From a virus, in IMG/VR virus record IMGVR_UViG_3300042884_000166, positions 1-39,798 of that record: a DNA stretch of 39,798 bases. One strand, given 5' to 3'. Below are positions 8,890 to 36,879 of the stretch, in pieces. The notes below the pieces were generated by a model. The model was given only the letters and a program-made list of their open reading frames with translations. It ran no database searches and had not been told where the DNA came from. Each line of letters starts with the position of its first letter. The first letter of the stretch is position 1. The position numbers were made by a program, and so were the translations under genes.

Positions 8890-8900
8890 AATGTTCCTCC

Positions 8901-8920
8901 TCTTAACTGGAGCGTCAGAG
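8901..8920 (-). promoter_or_regulatory. Candidate phage RNA-polymerase promoter (leftward copy)
   Basis: The element CTCTGACGCTCCAGTTAAGA reads leftward, directly before the ribosome site of the 94-residue gene. The same 17-base core recurs only at 23284-23303 and 27149-27168 (leftward) and 36519-36538 and 36594-36613 (rightward), each pointing along the local transcription. The CCAGTTAWGR end resembles the CACTATAG-type initiation part of T7-family promoters. A single-subunit RNA polymerase is encoded in the same genome. The function is inferred. Confidence 0.6.
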
Positions 8921-8973
8921 GGATTCCACAGCATTTGAGCCGTTTTGTGTTGAAGGGTACAGAGGGGTCTAGT

Positions 8974-11819: not shown

Positions 11820-13072
11820 TGCAATCTCGCTGGTACTGGCGCACCAATCTGTCTTAGATAATCTAAGTTCAGATTTGGGTCTTTCCAACTAGGATGATCT
11901 GCATCTTTCCATTTGAGATACTGTACAGGTCTGTACTTATGTCTCACGGCTGTCTGTTGATCTTTCGTGTAGAAATTATCCCAATCAGAATCTAACAGCT
12001 CAATGCTCTCAGACTTTGCTTTGAACAAATCCAACTCTATATGAGCGTTTGGCTCGTCACGGTAGAGGTGGTGAGTGTTCAAGTTCATACCTTGATGCAT
12101 CACAACTTTGAAGTAGTCTGTGTGATATCCATAGTCGTGCAGAGCAGGACCCTTGGCCATCAGACCAGTTACGTATGGCTTCCAGTCGATAGCACCACCA
12201 ATGTCATTATAATCTGACCAGTGGTTCTTCAACATTTGGTATTGATCTGCCAATTCGTTACTCGTCCAGAATGTGAACTCTTTAGGCTTGCCGTTGTTAC
12301 CTTGAGCAGTCTTTCTGTATTCACACTCCACAGATTCGAAGTTGTACACGTCTGCATGAAATGGAATTCTCTTGTTCATGTATGTGAGCAATTCGACAGT
12401 GTTCTCTTCCATCATTCTGATCTCTGTGTCGTTCACCTTATACTCTGGTGCACACAAATCTTCACGGTTGAATAGATAGCACATTGCCTTGAACTGAGAC
12501 CACGTTCCAGACTTATCGTACAGTTGTTGATCCCAATGATCGATGTCCCAGTCAAAGAACTCGTATAGAGTTTGTTGAGCGAGCCAACCTGTCATCCTAC
12601 CAATACCATAAAACTCAGTGATGCCACGGTTGAGACGATAGTAGTTATCTCTCGTGTTCCCTTGGTTCGCTAGGTCTCCTAGATATTGATACAGACTGCC
12701 ATTGCCAATCTTAGACTTGATACTCTTGATAAATGCTGGGAACTTCTTCAGTCCCCACTTAGTGTCTTTAGAGTATTTCATCCTTTGCCAGTTTCTATTG
12801 TGCCATTCCTGTAATACATCGTCAGGTGTGTTCAACAGATCTGGGAAAGTCTGCATCGTGATCATCGCAACGTGGTTACGGTAAGACTGTCCAAAGATCA
12901 TAGCATACAGAGCTTTATTGTCATTGTCCATGCCTAGCATGTCAGTGATCACTTTGCCTGTGTGATGATGATCTAAGTCTCCCTCCACACTGCGAGCAGC
13001 ATAGATTCGAGAGAAGGCTTCGAGACGGTTCTCTGGTAGACGCCAGTCTCTAGCTTGGATAATGTTTGACAT
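11816..13072 (-). CDS. Candidate amino-acid:DNA transferase-type hypermodification enzyme
   Basis: Start taken at MSNIIQARDWRLPENRLEAF (ATG at 13070-13072, site CGGAGAAGCAG); 418 residues, overlapping the glycosyltransferase gene by 23 bases. The segment FYGIGRMTGWLAQQTLYEFF is a helix-hairpin-helix-like motif matching the GIGNFMAGQI motif of the next gene, so the two appear to be distant fold relatives. Large acidic/aromatic C-terminal region (DWDIDHWDQQL; HDYGYHTDYFKVV). Size and neighbours fit the amino-acid:DNA transferases of phages with hypermodified thymidine. The family call is tentative; a role in base modification is better supported. Confidence 0.6.
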   Translation of the reverse strand: MSNIIQARDWRLPENRLEAFSRIYAARSVEGDLDHHHTGKVITDMLGMDNDNKALYAMIFGQSYRNHVAMITMQTFPDLLNTPDDVLQEWHNRNWQRMKYSKDTKWGLKKFPAFIKSIKSKIGNGSLYQYLGDLANQGNTRDNYYRLNRGITEFYGIGRMTGWLAQQTLYEFFDWDIDHWDQQLYDKSGTWSQFKAMCYLFNREDLCAPEYKVNDTEIRMMEENTVELLTYMNKRIPFHADVYNFESVECEYRKTAQGNNGKPKEFTFWTSNELADQYQMLKNHWSDYNDIGGAIDWKPYVTGLMAKGPALHDYGYHTDYFKVVMHQGMNLNTHHLYRDEPNAHIELDLFKAKSESIELLDSDWDNFYTKDQQTAVRHKYRPVQYLKWKDADHPSWKDPNLNLDYLRQIGAPVPARLQ

Positions 13073-13946
13073 CTGCTTCTCCGAATGGTTGCTCATAGAT
13101 TACATGCTTGACTTGATCCTTCAGATGTTTCTTTAGTTGAACTATAGTTTTCATCTTTACAGACCACATCCCAGTTTGTCTGGTTAGCGACGGTTGGTTG
13201 TACCATTTAGACATCTCTCTGACATTCGCATACATATGTTCAGTTTGAACTCGAGTTATGTCTGTAGCTTCAGATTTCTCACCACGGTCGCCTGATGCTT
13301 GCATGCCACCAGGTCGTTTACCATAGCCACCAGCATCTCCAACGACTACACCATGGAAAAGTAGGATTGCTCCATCTCGTTCCAACACTTGAGATGTCCG
13401 ACAGACATCGTCATTGTGCTTCAACCACGGTGGAACTTTGTGATGCTCCTGTGGGAAACATCCCCAGACTTGACTCATGAGAAATGGTTTGATCTCAGCG
13501 AACGCATCCTTCTTCCATAGCATGTTACCATCTATAGAAAATGAACAGGCTGTGATACCAAACTTCTTCATCTCAGTAGCAGCAAAGTCCACATACTTTT
13601 GGAAATCCATAGGTACTGGAGACTTTGCATTGTCTAGATATGGAGGATGGAAAGTGCCCTTGTAGGAGACATCATCATCGAATTGGAACAGAAGCATGTC
13701 CTGTCCCATATAATAATCGACAATAAAGTTTCCTACAGCAGCATTACCAATCACACCAACTACAATATCTTTGACCTCATACTCTCCAGTCAAAGATTGC
13801 TCATACAGTTGCTTCTCTTCTTCATTCGCAACAAAAACTACAACGTTGTCTTTGAGAGAAACTCCCATCTTACACAATGAAGATAGGGCTTTCTTCTTTA
13901 TCAGATCGTATCGTTTGTAGCTCTTGATCGCTATAATGTAATCCAT
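13050..13946 (-). CDS. TET/JBP-associated-type glycosyltransferase (putative DNA base glycosyltransferase)
   Basis: The start is MDYIIAIKSYKRYDLIKKKA (AGGAGCATT upstream), 298 residues. It opens with the nucleotide-sugar strand (IIAIKSYKR), carries a DxD-type metal/sugar motif in LLFQFDDDVSYKG, and has later GNMLWKKDAF and KHNDDVCRTSQVLERDGA segments. The arrangement matches the GT-A-like glycosyltransferases found beside TET/JBP and hydroxymethyl-pyrimidine genes in phages (TAGT class). It would attach a sugar to hydroxymethyl-uracil in DNA. Donor is unknown. It overlaps genes on both sides. Confidence 0.7.
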   Translation of the reverse strand: MDYIIAIKSYKRYDLIKKKALSSLCKMGVSLKDNVVVFVANEEEKQLYEQSLTGEYEVKDIVVGVIGNAAVGNFIVDYYMGQDMLLFQFDDDVSYKGTFHPPYLDNAKSPVPMDFQKYVDFAATEMKKFGITACSFSIDGNMLWKKDAFAEIKPFLMSQVWGCFPQEHHKVPPWLKHNDDVCRTSQVLERDGAILLFHGVVVGDAGGYGKRPGGMQASGDRGEKSEATDITRVQTEHMYANVREMSKWYNQPSLTRQTGMWSVKMKTIVQLKKHLKDQVKHVIYEQPFGEADVKHYPS

Positions 13947-14709
13947 AATGCTCCTCATCATGTTCTGGTGACCAATGTTTCACGGTTGCAGTTTCTTCGT
14001 CGTATAGGGAATGATCTAGAATCTTGGCCATGCGTGCCATTCGCAACGCATACTCCTCATCCAAACCAGCGTTCACATACGCTTCGACAACTGTGTTCCA
14101 ATTGATGCCACCTTTCTTCAGAATTCCTTCGGCACGTTTACCACCGACACCAGGAATTCCATCGTAGCCATCAGTCTTGTCTCCCATCAGAGTTTGCATG
14201 TAGAACCACTTACGAGCATCTTCAATGTTGATTTGATGCATCTCATCTTTGGGACCATTGATCCCAAGTTTGAAGAATCGTCCTGGAACACCCATCATGT
14301 CCTTATCGAGCGACACAATAATGTACTTACCAGGATAGCGTGTAGCGAGAATGCCCATGCAATCGTCCGCCTCTAAACCAGGTCGAACGTAGTGTGGGTA
14401 CTTATCCATAGCCCACTCTTTCAGAGCTGTGTATCCTAGTGGTTTGCGACCCTTACGGTTAGACTTATAGTCTGGATTCAAATCCTTCCTAAAGTTTCTA
14501 CCATGTGTGAAGCATAATGTGAATTTCTCCACACCTGTTCCATGTTGATACTTCTTCAGAAGTTGTTCGAATATAGCTTTAGCAGCTTTCAGATCTGTAT
14601 CAAGAGTCCAAAGATCTCTGTCCCACTCGATCTCTACTTCAGATGAGATACACGCTTGGTAGCATGTGATATCTGCATCAATCAGTAGTTCGTCATAAGT
14701 TCCGTTCAT
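13870..14709 (-). CDS. 5'-3' exonuclease (T7 gp6/FEN-like)
   Basis: The start is MNGTYDELLIDADITCYQAC (TGATG junction with the preceding gene). The 279-residue protein has the FEN/PIN nuclease acidic pattern: LIDADI near the N-terminus, RKDLNPDYKSNRKGRKP (helical arch), GLEADDCMGI, VSLDKDMMGVPG, and the H3TH segment MGDKTDGYDGIPGVGGKRAEGIL. In T7-like phages the enzyme removes RNA primers and degrades host DNA. It is co-transcribed with DUF3310 and MazG genes; the modification cluster follows immediately. Confidence 0.88.
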   Translation of the reverse strand: MNGTYDELLIDADITCYQACISSEVEIEWDRDLWTLDTDLKAAKAIFEQLLKKYQHGTGVEKFTLCFTHGRNFRKDLNPDYKSNRKGRKPLGYTALKEWAMDKYPHYVRPGLEADDCMGILATRYPGKYIIVSLDKDMMGVPGRFFKLGINGPKDEMHQINIEDARKWFYMQTLMGDKTDGYDGIPGVGGKRAEGILKKGGINWNTVVEAYVNAGLDEEYALRMARMAKILDHSLYDEETATVKHWSPEHDEEHYGLHYSDQELQTIRSDKEESPIFIV

Positions 14710-15717: not shown

Positions 15718-15776
15718 GTGTAAGACCACGACTCTCCCGAGTGGTGGTTTCGTCCATTAGGACTCATCAGTTACAC
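15718..15776 (-). ncRNA. Hammerhead ribozyme HH-b (type I)
   Basis: Leftward strand: stem I GUGUAA/UUACAC, CUGAUGA, stem II GUCC-UAAU-GGAC, GAAA, stem III CCACCACU/AGUCGUGG with one C-C mismatch and loop CGGGAG, then U16.1-C17 (complement of 15724). The TAG stop of the thymidylate-synthase-like gene shares one base with stem I. Cleavage would separate that gene from the MazG-DUF3310-exonuclease unit. Confidence 0.92.
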
Positions 15777-16828
15777 TATTGAGTTACTGTGTCTGGATTA
15801 GTCAGATCTTGACCATGTCCAATGATTTGCTCTGGTGTCTTCAGACGACGTTGCAACCATTCAATGGATGCTGTCTTGAAGTCACACTGTGACATATACT
15901 TCTGTAACAAGTTGATAGCACCAAAGGTGTCACCAGACTTGTGTTGTGTATACGCAAAGTACAACGGTTGAGCTACTCTAGTAAATGATTGATTAGAATA
16001 GTTCTTTGCTGTGCTCTCAGGATACTCACAGAAATGTGCACACTCCGATAAGAATGTATCCGCATCGTTCACGAGTGGGAACGGTTGGTTGTCTATCTCA
16101 GTGTAAGGATCGTTGACTCGGATCGCACCTAACATCACATCGTGACGATATCGCTCTACAAGTTTAGTCCAAGCTGGAAGATCAGTGTACACATGCATAC
16201 AATTGGAAACTTGATAGTAGTGTCCTACTTTCACTCCAACTGCTGCTGCGACATACTCTTGAATCATAGAGAAGTGACTCTTGTTCGCACCTAGAGCTCC
16301 CCAGATCAAGTCGTTGCTACGGTTGAACACTGTAAGATGTAACTTACCACCACGAATCTTGAAGACCATTTGCGTATTGCAAGCCTTATCCTTCGTGATC
16401 TTGTTTAGATCTAGTGTACACCATAGTTGAACAACTGCCTGACGAGTGTCGTGATTCTGACGCAACTGGTTGACAACCTCTCTCAACTGGTCGAATCCGA
16501 AATGATTTCTCATACGGAATCCATACGCAGCATTGAAAGTCTTACCATCGTCACTGAAGTTTGCCATGTTCTTGACAATCTTTGCGAGGAACGATAAGTC
16601 GTTTCTACCAGCTAGCATCCACAGTCCTTCAAGATAATTGAAGAATGGATTCTCATCACGAATTGGACAAAAGATCTGTCGCTCGAGAGGCTTTAGATAT
16701 TCAATGGTTGTGATACCATCAAACTCTAATGTAGGACCATTACGAGATGCCTGTGGAAAGCCACTGTCCAACGCATGGTTGATCATTAGTGGCAATCCGA
16801 CATGGGCATTCTTAACTGATACTTGCAT
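15776..16828 (-). CDS. Thymidylate-synthase-like enzyme (candidate dUMP hydroxymethylase)
   Basis: A 350-residue thymidylate synthase-fold protein. The catalytic cysteine is Cys150 in KDKACNTQMVF; the conserved Arg-Ser and Asp-x2 region is VFNRSNDLIWGALGANKSHF (Arg170), with GHYYQVSNCMHVYTD as the C-terminal ligand segment. Canonical enzymes have P-C-H next to the nucleophile and R-S-x-D-x2-LG-PFN; here A-C-N and WGALGAN replace them. Such departures are typical of hydroxymethylases and other specialised relatives in phages with modified pyrimidines. With dCMP deaminase, the P-loop kinase and glycosyltransferase it probably makes 5-hydroxymethyl-dUMP. Plain dTMP synthesis cannot be excluded. 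Confidence 0.8.
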   Translation of the reverse strand: MQVSVKNAHVGLPLMINHALDSGFPQASRNGPTLEFDGITTIEYLKPLERQIFCPIRDENPFFNYLEGLWMLAGRNDLSFLAKIVKNMANFSDDGKTFNAAYGFRMRNHFGFDQLREVVNQLRQNHDTRQAVVQLWCTLDLNKITKDKACNTQMVFKIRGGKLHLTVFNRSNDLIWGALGANKSHFSMIQEYVAAAVGVKVGHYYQVSNCMHVYTDLPAWTKLVERYRHDVMLGAIRVNDPYTEIDNQPFPLVNDADTFLSECAHFCEYPESTAKNYSNQSFTRVAQPLYFAYTQHKSGDTFGAINLLQKYMSQCDFKTASIEWLQRRLKTPEQIIGHGQDLTNPDTVTQ

Positions 16829-17408
16829 TGCAGAACTCCTTCACGAGGTTGTCTACATAGGTGTTGCAGTTATCACGGTCATCGTACAATACATTCATAC
16901 GACTATCCCACTCACGCCAAGTTGTGCTTTGCTTCTTCACAGTGCGGAAATAATTCTGCCTGTCAGCGATCTGCTGTTCTGTGAATGGCTCAGTACGACC
17001 TGTGCGAGCAATGGCGGATTCAATCATAACGTCGACAGAAGTGTTCAGTAACACCATGTGACAGTCATGACCAGCATCCAACTGTGGCTTCAAGAATTCC
17101 TTCCACGGCTCTATCGAACCAGTGGCACGGACTCCCTCGCAGATGACATTACCTTTCGGTAACAACTCTGCAACCAAACGTTGTGTCTCTTCTTTGCTCT
17201 CGAGAGAGTCGAGACCGCCATAGATAACTCGATACGAACCTAGGATGTAGGTGTTGATCTTTGGCAGATAACTGTACAACACACGCTCAGTCTTAGACCG
17301 TGCTGGTCGTAAAGTGTCTACTGTAGGACCATACTTCTCGATCAAGTTACGGATGATTGTAGTCTTACCAGAGGCATTTCCACCTCGAATTTGTACAAAT
17401 GTACTCAT
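16812..17408 (-). CDS. P-loop (deoxy)nucleotide or hydroxymethyl-dU kinase
   Basis: A 198-residue P-loop kinase with Walker A GGNASGKTT (residues 9-17), a later acidic strand (GNVICEGVRATG) and a lid-type arginine region (IARTGRTEPFTEQQIADRQ). The GGN-x-SGK loop occurs in the kinases of thymidine-hypermodifying phages, which act on 5-hydroxymethyl-dUMP or on hydroxymethyl-uracil in DNA. It overlaps the TS-like gene by 17 bases, a strong operon link. Alternatively it could be a general dNMP kinase. Confidence 0.78.
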   Translation of the reverse strand: MSTFVQIRGGNASGKTTIIRNLIEKYGPTVDTLRPARSKTERVLYSYLPKINTYILGSYRVIYGGLDSLESKEETQRLVAELLPKGNVICEGVRATGSIEPWKEFLKPQLDAGHDCHMVLLNTSVDVMIESAIARTGRTEPFTEQQIADRQNYFRTVKKQSTTWREWDSRMNVLYDDRDNCNTYVDNLVKEFCNASIS

Positions 17409-23266: not shown

Positions 23267-23285
23267 GAGAAGGATGTACCTTCTC
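23267..23285 (-). other. Perfect 7-bp hairpin after promoter-like repeat
   Basis: Leftward RNA: GAGAAGG-UACAU-CCUUCUC, starting at the presumed initiation end of the promoter-like repeat 23284-23303. A 5'-terminal hairpin of this kind can stabilise an mRNA or, being between RNA polymerase gene and HH-d, can be a weak terminator without U tract. The stem is certain; its use is inferred. Confidence 0.5.
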
Positions 23286-23303
23286 TTAACTGGAGCGTCA
23301 GAG
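23284..23303 (-). promoter_or_regulatory. Candidate phage RNA-polymerase promoter (leftward copy)
   Basis: The sequence is identical over 20 bases to the copy at 8901-8920 (CTCTGACGCTCCAGTTAAGA) and follows the RNA polymerase stop codon directly. It would let the phage enzyme transcribe the 22.8-kb genes, and beyond the 22.4-kb terminator the replication genes. In T7 the first phage promoters also follow gene 1. Confidence 0.62.
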
Positions 23304-25688
23304 CTATGCGAATGCATAGTGAGACTTAGAGGTGTTTCGTAGGTCCAACGATCCTCGTTGTGGAGGAGGTAGAACCTTCGATCTCTTGTTCTCTGGCAAT
23401 GCTGCAAGAACTCTGTTGTGCAAATCTTGGAGTGGGTCCCAGTTTTCATAAAGTTCCACGAATGTGTCCTTTACGATTGCTGAGAATTGCTCCATGTCAG
23501 ACGGTAGACAACTGAAGGAATCGTGAATCAATAGGAATTGGTGTATTCCAGATTCTTTCGCTGTCAGTGCCGCCATCTGCAAGTGAGTTGCATCACAGCT
23601 GTGCACAAAGTTCGGAGACATAGATGTTCTTTGTTTACTTGCTACCAGTTGGTCTGTGTAACCATAAACAAATCTATTCTGTAATCTGCGACCTTTCACT
23701 GTCACATTGACACGTGCTTCTTTCACCTTATAGTAGGCATTGTAGACTGGGAACGACAACGGTGTGAACCAGGTGATAGGAAGATTCTCCTTCGCCATGA
23801 TTCCTGCCAAATGCTGTAACCAATCCATAACTTCCATAGGTTTAGGAGCAATCTGTCTCAAGACAGTGTCCAAGTGGTTTGCTAGATAGACTGCAGATTT
23901 AATTGGGTTCTCGAATTTGTGCTTCTTCTCAGAAATCACATCCGACATCAATTGCTCTGCCCATCCAAACAATTCCATCTTGTTCGTACTGTTAGACTTT
24001 GTTACACCGCCTTTACGAGAGCCATAGCAAATTGTCATAGTTGAACGTTTGGTTGTCTTTCGAGTGATACCAAAGTCCAACCATTCAGTTGCTAGTTTCT
24101 GCGTAGCCTCGTCTGCATTCTTCAGATCATCCTTTAGAATTTCTATGAGGATTTCTGCGGCATCACGGTAAACGTCCTCTGGTTGTTCGCCAGGAATGAG
24201 GTTCACTCGTTTGCCTGTGGTATCATCTCGGAGCATAGCACTGAAGTGCTGTAATCCAGAGTTACTACCATCGATTGCAACTGGCAGATGACATATGTAA
24301 GAGGAACCTTGAAGTTGCCACTTACGATATTCAATGCATGCTGCTGCAAACAAGAATGGCTCAGATGCACCATCTTTACCATCTTCCCCATAGAACCACT
24401 CAGGATCTGTAAATGGATCTGCACCGAACGCCATGATTCTGTCATGGTTATCGTCGACCCACTTGACTCGATTCTCGAATGATGCTTTGGAAATCTTATC
24501 GAAGTCACCAGTGTTGGCTAGGTGAATCTTCAACCAATCTCCAGCTTCTTTAGTTTCAATTGGCTTGCCATCTGCGAACATCCAAAGCGATTTCATCCAA
24601 TCTGCTGCTTGATGATTTAGCGATGGGATCGCGTAGACTCGACCACGGAAATCCAAGAATGCTGGTAAGAACATACGTTCCTCGTTGGTCATAGACCGAG
24701 CTTCAGTCAAATCTGACAGGAATGTTGCCTGTAGCGACTTGTACTGATAGCCTTCCTTCTTGCTTAGTCCCTGTGGTAGGGAGCTCGGTGGAATCTTTCT
24801 GAACTTTCTCACATGCTCACCCTTGTCAGTTACCGAGAGATGATTAATCTCATAGGCACGTCTAATGATGTGAACTAGTTCAGTGTTGATCTTGAGTGGA
24901 ACGCTTTGAATAGCATTCACAGCATCAACCCACCGAGCACCCAAGACAGCAGACTCGCGTACTACTGCTTTGTGATCACGGTTCCAAGTCTTCACCAATC
25001 GCACTTTAGATGCGACACGTTCATCGTAGTAACTACCTTCGAGAATCGATTTTGGTTCAGACAACATTGGAGAGAACACAGGTTTAGATATGCGTTGATT
25101 GTCATAGATATCGTCCATGTGTTTCAGCGCACTATCAGTTAGCACTACTCTTGTGGCTTCATTACTTATACCACCAGCGTTCTCAGATCTAATGATCACA
25201 AACGCAGGATCCGACATAGCGCATACAGTTTCAATCAGGTTCGAACCGAGCACTAATGCTCTGCGTTTGAATTCGAGTTGATCTGTAGGTTTGTCTTCAA
25301 TTTGATCATAGCACATAACTCCAATTTTACTTGCGAGTGCTGTGTATGAAGATTTATCACTAGTCCCTCCTCGAGACTTGTGTTCACCTGTTGTGTTAGA
25401 GCTTCCCTTGCCCATGTTGAATAGGACTTGGTATGCGAAGATAACGCAAGGTGCCGCACCAATCTTCTGTGCGTCTAACTGCCAATCCATCATAGGACGG
25501 TGTGGCTGGTTAGTTGTAATTACTTCTTCGAAGGCACTGATAGTGTCACCTGTCAGATCCTTCATAAAACTAAATTCTGGTGCTGTCATTCGACCAGATG
25601 CTTGAGCAGATACAAACTTACGATCATATCTATCTACACCTTTATCGAACATACCAGATTCATGGAACTTTTCTAAATGTTCGTTCAT
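23304..25688 (-). CDS. Single-subunit DNA-dependent RNA polymerase (T7-like)
   Basis: The start is set at MNEHLEKFHESGMFDKGVDR (CGAGGAAC upstream). The 794-residue enzyme shows motif A LPVAIDGSNSGLQHFSAMLR (catalytic Asp), motif B TKRSTMTICYGSRKGG (Lys and Tyr), motif C FLLIHDSFSCLPSD (catalytic Asp), and ends in YAFA, matching the functionally essential FAFA end of T7 RNA polymerase. It is shorter than the 883-residue T7 enzyme, mostly in the N-terminal domain. It would read the phage promoters proposed here. Its mRNA starts at hammerhead HH-e. Confidence 0.96.
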   Translation of the reverse strand: MNEHLEKFHESGMFDKGVDRYDRKFVSAQASGRMTAPEFSFMKDLTGDTISAFEEVITTNQPHRPMMDWQLDAQKIGAAPCVIFAYQVLFNMGKGSSNTTGEHKSRGGTSDKSSYTALASKIGVMCYDQIEDKPTDQLEFKRRALVLGSNLIETVCAMSDPAFVIIRSENAGGISNEATRVVLTDSALKHMDDIYDNQRISKPVFSPMLSEPKSILEGSYYDERVASKVRLVKTWNRDHKAVVRESAVLGARWVDAVNAIQSVPLKINTELVHIIRRAYEINHLSVTDKGEHVRKFRKIPPSSLPQGLSKKEGYQYKSLQATFLSDLTEARSMTNEERMFLPAFLDFRGRVYAIPSLNHQAADWMKSLWMFADGKPIETKEAGDWLKIHLANTGDFDKISKASFENRVKWVDDNHDRIMAFGADPFTDPEWFYGEDGKDGASEPFLFAAACIEYRKWQLQGSSYICHLPVAIDGSNSGLQHFSAMLRDDTTGKRVNLIPGEQPEDVYRDAAEILIEILKDDLKNADEATQKLATEWLDFGITRKTTKRSTMTICYGSRKGGVTKSNSTNKMELFGWAEQLMSDVISEKKHKFENPIKSAVYLANHLDTVLRQIAPKPMEVMDWLQHLAGIMAKENLPITWFTPLSFPVYNAYYKVKEARVNVTVKGRRLQNRFVYGYTDQLVASKQRTSMSPNFVHSCDATHLQMAALTAKESGIHQFLLIHDSFSCLPSDMEQFSAIVKDTFVELYENWDPLQDLHNRVLAALPENKRSKVLPPPQRGSLDLRNTSKSHYAFA

Positions 25689-25718
25689 TTCTGTTCCTCG
25701 TATAAATAACACATCATT

Positions 25719-27127: not shown

Positions 27128-27148
27128 GATACCTCCTAGTTGTGAACG

Positions 27149-27168
27149 TCTTAACTGGAGCGTCAGAC
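27149..27168 (-). promoter_or_regulatory. Candidate phage RNA-polymerase promoter (leftward copy)
   Basis: Leftward copy GTCTGACGCTCCAGTTAAGA, differing from the other copies only at the first base. It touches the stop codon of the upstream 59-residue gene and precedes the ribosome site of the 116-residue gene by about 15 bases. It would allow the phage polymerase to re-transcribe its own gene region, which is autogenous in effect. Confidence 0.58.
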
Positions 27169-27347
27169 TACTTGCGTCGCTTTAGGACTTTCTTCCAGTC
27201 CGCTACTTCATAGATCTGGGCGAGCCAGTCTTCAGGTAATTTCTTGCGCAGAATCGAGATTTCGATCTGTGCCTCCTCTAGAGTGTTAACTTCGACCTCA
27301 ACGGTCTCCTCAAGATCGGGTGCAATTTTAGTTACGATGAATGCCAT
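27168..27347 (-). CDS. Small hypothetical protein, 59 aa
   Basis: ATG at 27345-27347 overlaps the previous stop (TAATG) and has AAAGGAGCC upstream. The protein reads MAFIVTKIAPDLEETVEVEV then an acidic helix (NTLEEAQIEISILRKKLPED) and ends KKVLKRRK. Just below a 60-residue limit, so easily missed. It ends at the promoter-like repeat. Function unknown. Confidence 0.68.
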   Translation of the reverse strand: MAFIVTKIAPDLEETVEVEVNTLEEAQIEISILRKKLPEDWLAQIYEVADWKKVLKRRK

Positions 27348-34123: not shown

Positions 34124-34438
34124 TTAAGCGTAAGCGGGATTTGAACAGCCAGTAATAGCAATCTTCAAATCGTAATATTTGTTGAACCAAGGAAGTTTCC
34201 TATTCTTTTTGTTAGGATACCCTTTTGTTCGGCCACAAACTTTTACAATAAACTGCTCATCTTGGTGCATACCAATAAAAGCATTTAGTGTTGAGGTGTG
34301 TTTCACATTAGAATTAAAGAAATCTTTCGATTCTAGAATTCGACTATTCGTGCTTCGATTCAAGCCAACGGCTGTGAACATGTGCTCTTTTAAGCGTGGC
34401 ACATAAATTAGAACTAAGTTTCGTTCTTTGTTTTTCAT
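34124..34438 (-). CDS. Hypothetical protein, 104 aa
   Basis: The start is MKNKERNLVLIYVPRLKEHM with GGAGTATTAT upstream. Basic, strand-rich (FTAVGLNRSTNSRILESKDF; QFIVKVCGRTKGYPNKKNRK). The order of features (short basic N-terminus, FxVxY strand, R-L-x-E, N-R-S) is reminiscent of the 105-residue protein that follows it, so a paralogous pair is possible. First gene after type III hammerhead HH-m. Function unknown. Confidence 0.62.
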   Translation of the reverse strand: MKNKERNLVLIYVPRLKEHMFTAVGLNRSTNSRILESKDFFNSNVKHTSTLNAFIGMHQDEQFIVKVCGRTKGYPNKKNRKLPWFNKYYDLKIAITGCSNPAYA

Positions 34439-34469
34439 ATAATACTCCAATCATAATAAGATAAATAAA

Positions 34470-34520
34470 TCTGTTTCGTCGTTTCCGACTCATCAGTGTG
34501 GATACACATCCACATACAGA
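34470..34520 (-). ncRNA. Hammerhead ribozyme HH-m (type III topology)
   Basis: Leftward strand: stem III strand UCUGU (U16.1), A17, closed stem I UGUGGAU-GUGU-AUCCACA, core CUGAUGA, stem II GUCG-GAAA-CGAC, GAAA, and the closing stem III strand CAGA. Here stem I is a capped hairpin and stem III is open, unlike the other 14. Stem III has only five pairs, so activity is less certain. It sits at the 3' end of the structured RNA at 34515-34639. Confidence 0.78.
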
Positions 34521-34639
34521 GCACCTTGTTTGCGGCACAAGATGCAAAAGCCCTCGCTAGGATTGGATAAAGGGATCCAATAATAGAGAGTGTTCGATTC
34601 GCCATAAAGGCATGCTCTCGAACTCGCATTATAATCTAA
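34515..34639 (-). ncRNA. Structured, tRNA-like RNA bracketed by two hammerheads
   Basis: No gene is present. The leftward RNA from the HH-n cleavage site to the HH-m cleavage site is 125 nt. Visible stems: an outer AGAGCAU/GUGCUCU (34612-34618 with 34518-34524), GCC-UUUAU-GGC, AUUGGAU-CCCUUU-AUCCAAU, CCU-AGCG-AGG, and CUUGU-GCCGCAA-ACAAG (5-bp stem, 7-nt loop) directly beside the outer stem. The outline recalls a tRNA cloverleaf, but T-loop, anticodon and CCA consensus are missing. GUUCGA/UCGAAC is an alternative pairing. Excision as a discrete RNA, possibly circularised, is inference. Confidence 0.6.
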
Positions 34640-34703
34640 GACTACCATGCCAGTGTTTCTGGTCTTATTGATAGTTTCGTCGTTACCGACTCATCAGTTA
34701 GAT
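34634..34703 (-). ncRNA. Hammerhead ribozyme HH-n (type I, extended stem III)
   Basis: Leftward strand: stem I AUCUAA/UUAGAU, CUGAUGA, stem II GUCG-GUAA-CGAC, GAAA, stem III CUAUC/GGUAG extended by an inner CCAG-AAACA-CUGG hairpin, U16.1-C17 (complement of 34640). It lies one base after the stop codon of the Ala/Lys-rich gene and frees the 5' end of the structured RNA. Confidence 0.93.
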
Positions 34704-34704
34704 G

Positions 34705-35247
34705 TTATGCTGCTTCCAATTCTTCGACAGTCTCTTCGACAATCTTGACGGTTGCAACTTTAGCCTTATTCTTTACAGAATTGGCTTTCAATGCTAATTT
34801 CTCAGCTTTGACACGAGCTTTCTCAGCGAGTTTGGCTTCGTGGTTCAATTGGCGAGAAACTAATTTCTCAGCTTTCAATTTGGCACGAGCTTCCGCACGT
34901 TCAAGTTTGGCTTGATTCCATGCGGCATCTTTCGCTGCTTTGCGTAGAGCACGTTCTTCGGCTTTGGCGAATTTCGCACGTTGATATGCGGCATCCTTCT
35001 CGGCTTTAGCGATTGCTTTGGCTTGAGCTTTCTCTTCTTTGATACGAGCAATGTCAATATCAATGAATCGTAGAGCTTCTTCAGAGAACTTTACATTCTT
35101 GAAGCCCATGTCACGAACTTTGTTTCCAAGTTCATAGCGATCTGTAAATGTTCCAATTTCTTTCTGTTCAACAATTTGAATGTTGCGAATCAGAACTAAT
35201 TTGTTATCTACAAGTTTTACTTCTAATGGGTTAAAGTTTGTTTTCAT
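34705..35247 (-). CDS. Ala/Lys/Glu-rich coiled-coil protein, 180 aa
   Basis: The first about 65 residues form a small folded domain (MKTNFNPLEVKLVDNKLVLI; GTFTDRYELGNKVRDMGFKN). From residue 65 on it is a long charged helix of degenerate repeats (AKAIAKAEKDAAYQRAKFAK; AERALRKAAKDAAWNQAKLE; RAEARAKLKAEKL...KARVKAEKLALKA). Coiled coil is certain by composition. It is the first gene of the whole leftward operon, the position of T7 gene 0.3-like host-takeover proteins; a role there is inference. Confidence 0.7.
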   Translation of the reverse strand: MKTNFNPLEVKLVDNKLVLIRNIQIVEQKEIGTFTDRYELGNKVRDMGFKNVKFSEEALRFIDIDIARIKEEKAQAKAIAKAEKDAAYQRAKFAKAEERALRKAAKDAAWNQAKLERAEARAKLKAEKLVSRQLNHEAKLAEKARVKAEKLALKANSVKNKAKVATVKIVEETVEELEAA

Positions 35248-35599: not shown

Positions 35600-36060
35600 T
35601 ATTATTTATAGACTCCATCTGCACAACTCTGGACTAGGTCTTTACTACAGCGAGATTATTTGGATCGCAAATCCATTTGTAAGATTGAGGATTACAACTC
35701 CTAGTAAAATTAAGGATTACAACTCCTGTCAAGTTCGATAGTTTTACATCTTTCTGCATGACTCTGGACTAGATGGATCGATCGGGATTGCTCCTTTTCT
35801 TTCTAAGGAGTGTTTAGTCGGTCTGAGGAGGCTTGCAGTCATAGGATCCTAGAAGCCCTCGACAGGAGAGTAAAGGAGGACTAAAAGTTGCCCTCAGAGC
35901 TCGGCTCCTCCTCGTGTTAAGCATTTTTCTAACCCTTAGAATTGACTCGGAAAATTGTTATAATTTATCGCAGGAGCTCGGTCTGAGGCGATGATCGACA
36001 GGAGAGCTTCGCAGGTCGAAATATTGGTCTAAAAGCGACTCCTGGAGAGGATCTGATTTG
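35600..36060. repeat. Non-coding leader with short direct repeats
   Basis: No plausible gene is present. Short repeats include AGGATTACAACTCCT (about 35687 and 35713), CTCTGGACTAG (about 35627 and 35764), TCGACAGGAGAG (about 35857 and 35997), and GGTCTGAGG twice. This is where a host-type leftward early promoter is expected. The best candidate has TTGACA (complement of 35727-35732), a 17-base spacer and a poor TTTTAC -10 box; it is weak. Confidence 0.45.
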
Positions 36061-36104
36061 TCCTTATTGCCATAGTTGGGTAATCAGAGTGTGACGGTGG
36101 CTCC

Positions 36105-36505
36105 TAAACCTTAGAATATAAAAGGAAATAAAACAGTCTGCCCCATCCTAAACCTTTGAATATAAAAGGAAAATCCCTGTACAGTCTGCCCCTGTGTAAG
36201 TATTTGAATACAAAAGGATTATTCTTTGGTACTAACCCTTAGAATATAAAAGGAAATTTCTTAGATGCTGCCCCATCCTAAACCTTAGAATCTAAAAGGG
36301 AAATCCTGGGACATCCTAAACCTTAGAATCTAAAAGGAAAATATCCAGTCTGCCCCATCGCAAACCTTAGAATTCACTCAGGAAATTCCCATCTAGAGTT
36401 ACGTCTGCCCCATCCTAAACCTTAGAATCTAAAAGAAAATTTCTGTAAAATCTACCATTTCTGGACAGTCTGCCCCACTGCAACCCTTAGAATTACCTAA
36501 GGATT
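36105..36505. repeat. Iteron array, about nine copies of AACCTTAGAATnTAAAAGG
   Basis: About nine degenerate copies start near 36107, 36150, 36196, 36234, 36280, 36318, 36362, 36417 and 36482, with one outlier near 35933. Spacing is 38-65 bases, and several copies are followed by CAGTCTGCCCCAT. Each is an imperfect dyad (CCTT...AAGG); the last is a perfect one, CCTTAG-AATTAC-CTAAGG. Dyad iterons at the divergent junction, next to the terminase genes, fit binding sites for a replication initiator or for the small terminase subunit. Confidence 0.72.
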
Positions 36506-36518
36506 TCTCTACTATTTC

Positions 36519-36538
36519 CTCTGACGCTCCAGTTATGG
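36519..36538 (+). promoter_or_regulatory. Candidate phage RNA-polymerase promoter (rightward, tandem copy 1)
   Basis: Rightward CTCTGACGCTCCAGTTATGG, embedded in a 35-base perfect direct repeat (36514-36548 and 36589-36623). The orientation is opposite to the three leftward copies and agrees with the rightward packaging genes. It is expected to drive late transcription and possibly primer RNA for replication. Confidence 0.62.
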
Positions 36539-36593
36539 AAGAGTAATGAATCCTCCTAGACCCTGTCAGCGAGAAAAGGAAACCTTCAATTTC

Positions 36594-36613
36594 CTCTGAC
36601 GCTCCAGTTATGG
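36594..36613 (+). promoter_or_regulatory. Candidate phage RNA-polymerase promoter (rightward, tandem copy 2)
   Basis: Second member of the tandem pair, 75 bases after copy 1 and identical over 35 bases. Transcripts starting here would carry about 1 kb of untranslated sequence before the small terminase gene, unless used for replication priming. T7 has a comparable tandem pair (phi1.1A/B) at its primary origin. Confidence 0.62.
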
Positions 36614-36879
36614 AAGAGTAATGCCTTTGGCACCCTCTCCACTGGGTCTTCTCAAGACTCCATAGTCTGACGGTCACATTATCAGTGTTTACCCTCATGA
36701 CTCAAATCACCTACCAGTGAGTGCCTAATACCAATTAGTCTCCTCACTACTTACTGTGAATAAGCTTACCATCATGTCTCTGCCCAAGCATGAATGAGTA
36801 TTGCTGTATGCAACTTATCCCTGTAAGCTCCTTATATAGTACTCATCCTCCTGGTGAGTATCCTTAGGGCGATCATAAC

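Follow-up and report, generated by a model that had tools for sequence, protein, structure and literature searches.

A probable small-RNA cassette framed by two ribozymes among the early genes of a T7-like phage

In a T7-like phage, 125 nt of non-coding sequence in the early region lie between two hammerhead ribozymes, one of type I and one of type III, which together probably form a small-RNA cassette that would release this stretch as a discrete RNA. The window analysed here is the whole of a 39,798-base virus record from IMG/VR. The features on which the argument depends are as follows.

23304-25712, minus strand: single-subunit RNA polymerase
34705..35247, minus strand: upstream gene, 180 aa, no family match
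34634..34703, minus strand: type I hammerhead HH-n (Rfam RF00163, 30.0 bits, E=1.4e-3, slightly under the curated Rfam cut-off with the full core present; architecture classifier; canonical when folded alone)
34515..34639, minus strand: 125-nt non-coding RNA with predicted 5'-OH and 2',3'-cyclic phosphate ends (cut positions, codon usage)
34592..34623, minus strand: predicted hairpin 1 (GUUCGA ... UGCC uuuau GGCG ... UCGAAC), in the minimum free energy (MFE) and centroid folds
34553..34590, minus strand: predicted hairpin 2, loop CCCUUU, in the MFE and centroid folds
34521..34545, minus strand: predicted 9-bp hairpin 3 (GCAUCUUGU/ACAAGGUGC, loop GCCGCAA), in the MFE and centroid folds
34468..34522, minus strand: type III hammerhead HH-m (Rfam RF00008, 47.4 bits, E=1.7e-7, slightly under the curated Rfam cut-off with the full core present; architecture classifier; canonical when folded alone)
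34124..34438, minus strand: downstream gene, 104 aa, no family match

The assignment to T7-like phages follows from gene content. Besides the RNA polymerase, the window encodes a primase/helicase, a DNA polymerase, a Gp2.5-like single-stranded-DNA-binding protein and a DNA ligase, with the large terminase on the strand opposite to the RNA polymerase gene. Proteins resembling a glucosyltransferase, a thymidylate synthase and a guanylate kinase (13050-13961, 15776-16828 and 16812-17408) jointly suggest modified DNA bases. The motif TCTGACGCTCCAGTTA.GAG recurs at 8891-8934, 23274-23317 and 27139-27182 on the minus strand and at 36509-36548 and 36584-36623 on the plus strand, and is probably the promoter for the phage-encoded RNA polymerase. 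In the non-coding region preceding the early genes (35929-36503), a 38-48 nt repeat (CTAAACCTTAGAATATAAAAGGAAAT) occurs about eight times in tandem, with its copies imperfect; this is a possible protein-binding or promoter array.

Using an architecture classifier, we found 15 hammerheads with all three stems in the window, every one on the minus strand, compared with 0.1 per genome in a shuffled control; a search for the core pattern gave 16 matches, these 15 among them, where 0.15 were expected. The hammerheads have the core CUGANGA...GAAA, three stems and an NUH cut site, and as in the arrays of Perreault et al. 2011 they recur on the coding strand among phage genes. All but one are type I, the sole type III lying at 34496. 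They are placed between genes or just 3' of a stop codon, which often falls within stem I (UAA immediately before CUGA). Compensatory changes among the copies are seen in stems I, II and III; stem I, for example, occurs as AUCUAA/UUAGAU, GUGUAA/UUACAC, GUCAAA/UUUGAC and GUCUGA/UCAGAC, and in relatives as GCCUAU/AUAGGC. Since the stem sequences vary while pairing is kept, this comparison provides strong evidence that the hammerheads function as ribozymes. Two of the type I copies on the minus strand (32226-32143 and 25794-25725) carry long structured insertions in stem III, of about 60 and 46 nt, which are kept in a relative and could be sensor or protein-binding elements. The 13 hammerheads other than HH-n and HH-m would cut same-strand messages between genes or gene blocks, as RNase III sites do in T7. 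There, such sites cut both early and late mRNAs between genes, leaving folded 3' ends.

The preliminary description of this locus had named HH-n a type I and HH-m a type III hammerhead, and the Rfam matches, the classifier and the canonical folds agree: folded singly, each has the exact canonical three-way junction as its minimum-energy structure. In HH-n, which begins its core 8 nt after the end of the stop codon of the 180-aa gene, stem I is AUCUAA/UUAGAU, stem II is GUCG/CGAC and stem III is long with an inner hairpin. Cleavage is predicted after 34640 (GUC) in HH-n and after 34515 (GUA) in HH-m, which gives the same 125-nt interval, 34639 to 34515, that was first proposed. This is, as also claimed at the outset, the only gap between successive hammerheads that contains no predicted gene, and it is the one with the sole type III ribozyme at its 3' edge. 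The type III ribozyme (34496) and the neighbouring type I copies at 34697, 33788 and 32938 have a common core and stem II with one base different, which suggests that, in this lineage, one of the two layouts was derived from the other.

Excision by the two ribozymes is well supported by this anatomy. A long early transcript would be cut during synthesis. The type I ribozyme behind the 180-aa gene would cut on its own 3' side and stay as the folded 3' end of that mRNA, while the type III ribozyme would cut on its own 5' side and remain part of the next message's 5' leader. With one ribozyme kept on the upstream message and the other on the downstream message, the middle RNA would leave almost scar-free, and of the ribozymes it would keep no more than 6 nt from stem I and some 5 nt from stem III. 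The analysis shows the sequence, the ribozyme types, the cut positions, their strand, the missing coding signal and a second, independent case (L116, below); the chemistry of the ribozymes leads us to infer cutting in the cell and the end groups. In a thermodynamic fold of the whole 236-nt stretch, cross-pairing of the near-identical stem II sequences of HH-n and HH-m is favoured over both ribozymes, so cutting may depend on folding order; HH-n would presumably be finished before the second copy of stem II is transcribed.

The interval was also said to be rich in stems. Its z-score of -2.5 to -2.7 bears this out, yet 13% of equal windows on the same strand score as low, and its degree of structure is ordinary for this genome. 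Relative to IMGVR_UViG_3300044732_000574, the 200 nt that stretch from the core of HH-n into the loop of HH-m show no substitutions and one 1-nt deletion, against 2.9% difference in the coding stretch just upstream (34745-35094; P about 0.003, a single comparison), which we take as moderate evidence for sequence constraint. The 125-nt unit is likewise free of substitutions in the relatives L008 and L009, which represent one lineage. In relatives, L009 among them, the downstream 104-aa gene has been swapped for an unrelated gene, with the break directly behind the type III ribozyme, so hammerheads may mark the borders of exchangeable cassettes.

A covariance model of the unit recovered the unit itself and its relative plus chance-level matches, with no homologue beyond the close relatives, and the homologues found are identical ones from a single relative lineage. 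Rfam families other than the hammerhead gave no match above the gathering score, and blastn with the DNA around the locus found nothing in a phage collection of 50,697 records. The phage contains no complement of at least 12 nt to the unit as an antisense target. Neither a promoter nor a terminator was found within the unit on the minus strand; a terminator-like site at 34649-34663 lies on the other strand, inside stem III of the type I ribozyme. We surveyed the wider clade through RNA polymerase and primase proteins. Hammerheads are present at the RNA polymerase gene in L015, L016 and L036 (about 54-64% identity in one of the two proteins), whose contigs are short fragments ending before the 125-nt locus. 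Relatives at or below 54% primase identity had no hammerheads in the stretches fetched, except for one marginal core in two near-identical contigs, and GTDB genomes scanned with the N-terminus of the RNA polymerase yielded nothing. The RNA polymerase gene of L015 is split by about 0.8 kb (L015:2925-3763) with an ORF that by eye resembles a homing endonuclease, likely a group I intron or similar insertion.

Scans for hammerhead pairs were run over viral contigs and genomes. In viral contigs they returned mostly type I pairs flanking short genes; in genomes they returned no further non-coding pair of type I and type III. One unrelated phage contig of 78.7 kb (L116) has just two true hammerheads, arranged as gene, type I, about 105 nt, type III, gene. 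That unit is crossed by a 51-codon GTG frame and could be coding. At L113:2645-2819, hammerheads with similar flanking sequence recur in tandem at a spacing of about 172 nt, a retrozyme-like arrangement. Across the fetched loci, a non-random sample chosen by hammerhead content, 96/109 type I hammerheads directly follow an ORF of at least 35 codons, compared with 4/12 type III (p=7e-5) and 25% of random positions. Type I hammerheads thus appear, in these loci, to stand behind genes and type III hammerheads behind non-coding RNA. Such a rule would follow from geometry: after cleavage a type I ribozyme belongs to the upstream RNA and a type III ribozyme to the downstream one. Three IMG/VR contigs, and Flavobacterium Elemovirus phages with 68 matching records, have a non-coding leader with a type III hammerhead at its end. 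In MT497017.1, a cultured phage and the record read in detail, the leader is about 185 nt long and follows a Bacteroidota-type promoter (L206:2821-3056); the element is absent from Rfam.

Several observations thus favour a released RNA: 15 same-strand hammerheads with intact cores and compensatory stems, the same order of elements in L116, type III ribozymes placed after non-coding leaders in Elemovirus and the three contigs, and a locus free of substitutions despite a swapped next gene. Counting against it are the cross-pairing in the 236-nt fold, the unexceptional z-score, the GTG frame in L116 and the presence of the unit in one relative lineage only. Our best guess, to which we give roughly even odds, is that the freed molecule is a linear small RNA acting in trans early in infection. 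More tentatively, phages in general might use such a cassette, with a type I ribozyme in front and a type III ribozyme after, to cut small RNAs that act in trans out of polycistronic transcripts, with no need of host nucleases; the RNA described here would then be a new regulatory or anti-host RNA produced in that manner.

The main rival, which we consider unlikely, is that the ribozymes serve message processing only: the interval would be a remnant of a 5' leader or a disposable, structured spacer, HH-m would do no more than trim the leader of the downstream message, and the 125-nt RNA would have no function of its own. The trimming of promoter-proximal leaders by type III hammerheads in Flavobacterium phages fits this account, as do the ordinary structural score and the lack of homologues outside close relatives. 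It is harder to reconcile with the freedom from substitutions over 200 nt, which suggests constraint, and a spacer would require just one ribozyme. Nor is the interval obviously a leader, given that it contains no promoter-like site on the minus strand.

Circularisation had been raised as a possibility for the unit. Hammerhead cleavage implies the right end chemistry, and a 5'-OH with a 2',3'-cyclic phosphate would in principle permit RtcB-type ligation. We found nothing else in its support and regard a circle as very unlikely. The phage proteins scanned included no RNA ligase, and both ribozymes are left outside the unit and so cannot religate it, unlike those of retrozymes. Pairing between the ends of the unit is not strong, and folding it as a circle gives an MFE (-35.6) no better than that of the linear form (-37.5). 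Furthermore, spliced or circular products were sought in other phage arrays and none was found (Perreault et al. 2011, PMC3088659).

It is highly improbable that the interval encodes a small protein. The preliminary description had reported no open frame; two in fact cross it on the minus strand, of 51 and 64 codons, and both score as non-coding. Against this phage's own codon usage they score -0.08 and 0.00, where the 5th percentile for real coding pieces is 0.09, and neither has a ribosome-binding site or a family match. The ribozyme site severs the 51-codon frame, and the 1-nt deletion in relatives alters both.

The proposal that the unit is tRNA-like (a mimic, or a permuted or decayed tRNA) is largely refuted already, and we give it almost no credence: a 7-bp outer stem (AGAGCAU/GUGCUCU) can be drawn beside a 5-bp arm with a 7-nt loop, as had been noted, but the stem has a pairing probability of about 4e-4 because the local 9-bp hairpin takes the same bases, the supposed T loop (GCCGCAA) departs from the consensus UUCRANN, the unit lacks CCA, and both ARAGORN and Rfam are negative. 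That arm is part of hairpin 3. About 5 kcal/mol would be lost by forming the acceptor-like stem, whose 3' strand shares bases with this hairpin and also with stem III of HH-m. At default settings ARAGORN found no tRNA in the unit, on its reverse strand or in a head-to-tail dimer standing for a permuted or circular molecule, whereas relaxed settings produced hundreds of meaningless matches; with the same program tmRNA and permuted tRNA were rejected. The Rfam tRNA model gave no match even at E=10 in a 271-nt search.

Clustered hammerheads flanking genes in phages and prophages were already known, and the proposal was that they divide long transcripts into mRNAs of gene length (Perreault et al. 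2011, PMC3088659). Those arrays, too, have hammerheads of all three types lying on the transcribed strand in the gaps between phage genes. There, however, genes are flanked, whereas in the present phage it is a non-coding RNA that lies between a type I and a type III ribozyme, in a genome with 15 hammerheads. The released unit predicted here appears to be a new variant on the gene-flanking phage hammerheads. The role of phage hammerheads has been a question since 2011, and the layout rule offers a clear, testable reason for their differing layouts; Flavobacterium Elemovirus phages that are in culture and bear a type III hammerhead provide a laboratory system. Processing by RNase III in T7 is similar in cutting between the genes of a T7-like phage and in leaving folded 3' ends; it relies on a host enzyme, in contrast to the cassette, where RNA catalysis would leave 5'-OH and cyclic-phosphate termini. 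Self-cleavage also trims a phage non-coding RNA in the case of the HDV-like theta ribozymes that neighbour phage tRNAs (PMC10879173), but these belong to another ribozyme class and act beside a real tRNA, in place of two hammerheads and no tRNA. In retrozymes and viroid-like circular RNAs (PMC4918200), hammerheads again define a unit RNA; the ribozyme is kept in the unit and units are in tandem, neither of which holds for the phage cassette. A parallel in design is the engineered guide RNA flanked by two ribozymes oriented to stay off the released RNA (for example PMC5104441). The phage cassette differs in being natural and in having hammerheads on both sides; its bracketed unit would amount to a naturally occurring form of that synthetic-biology design.
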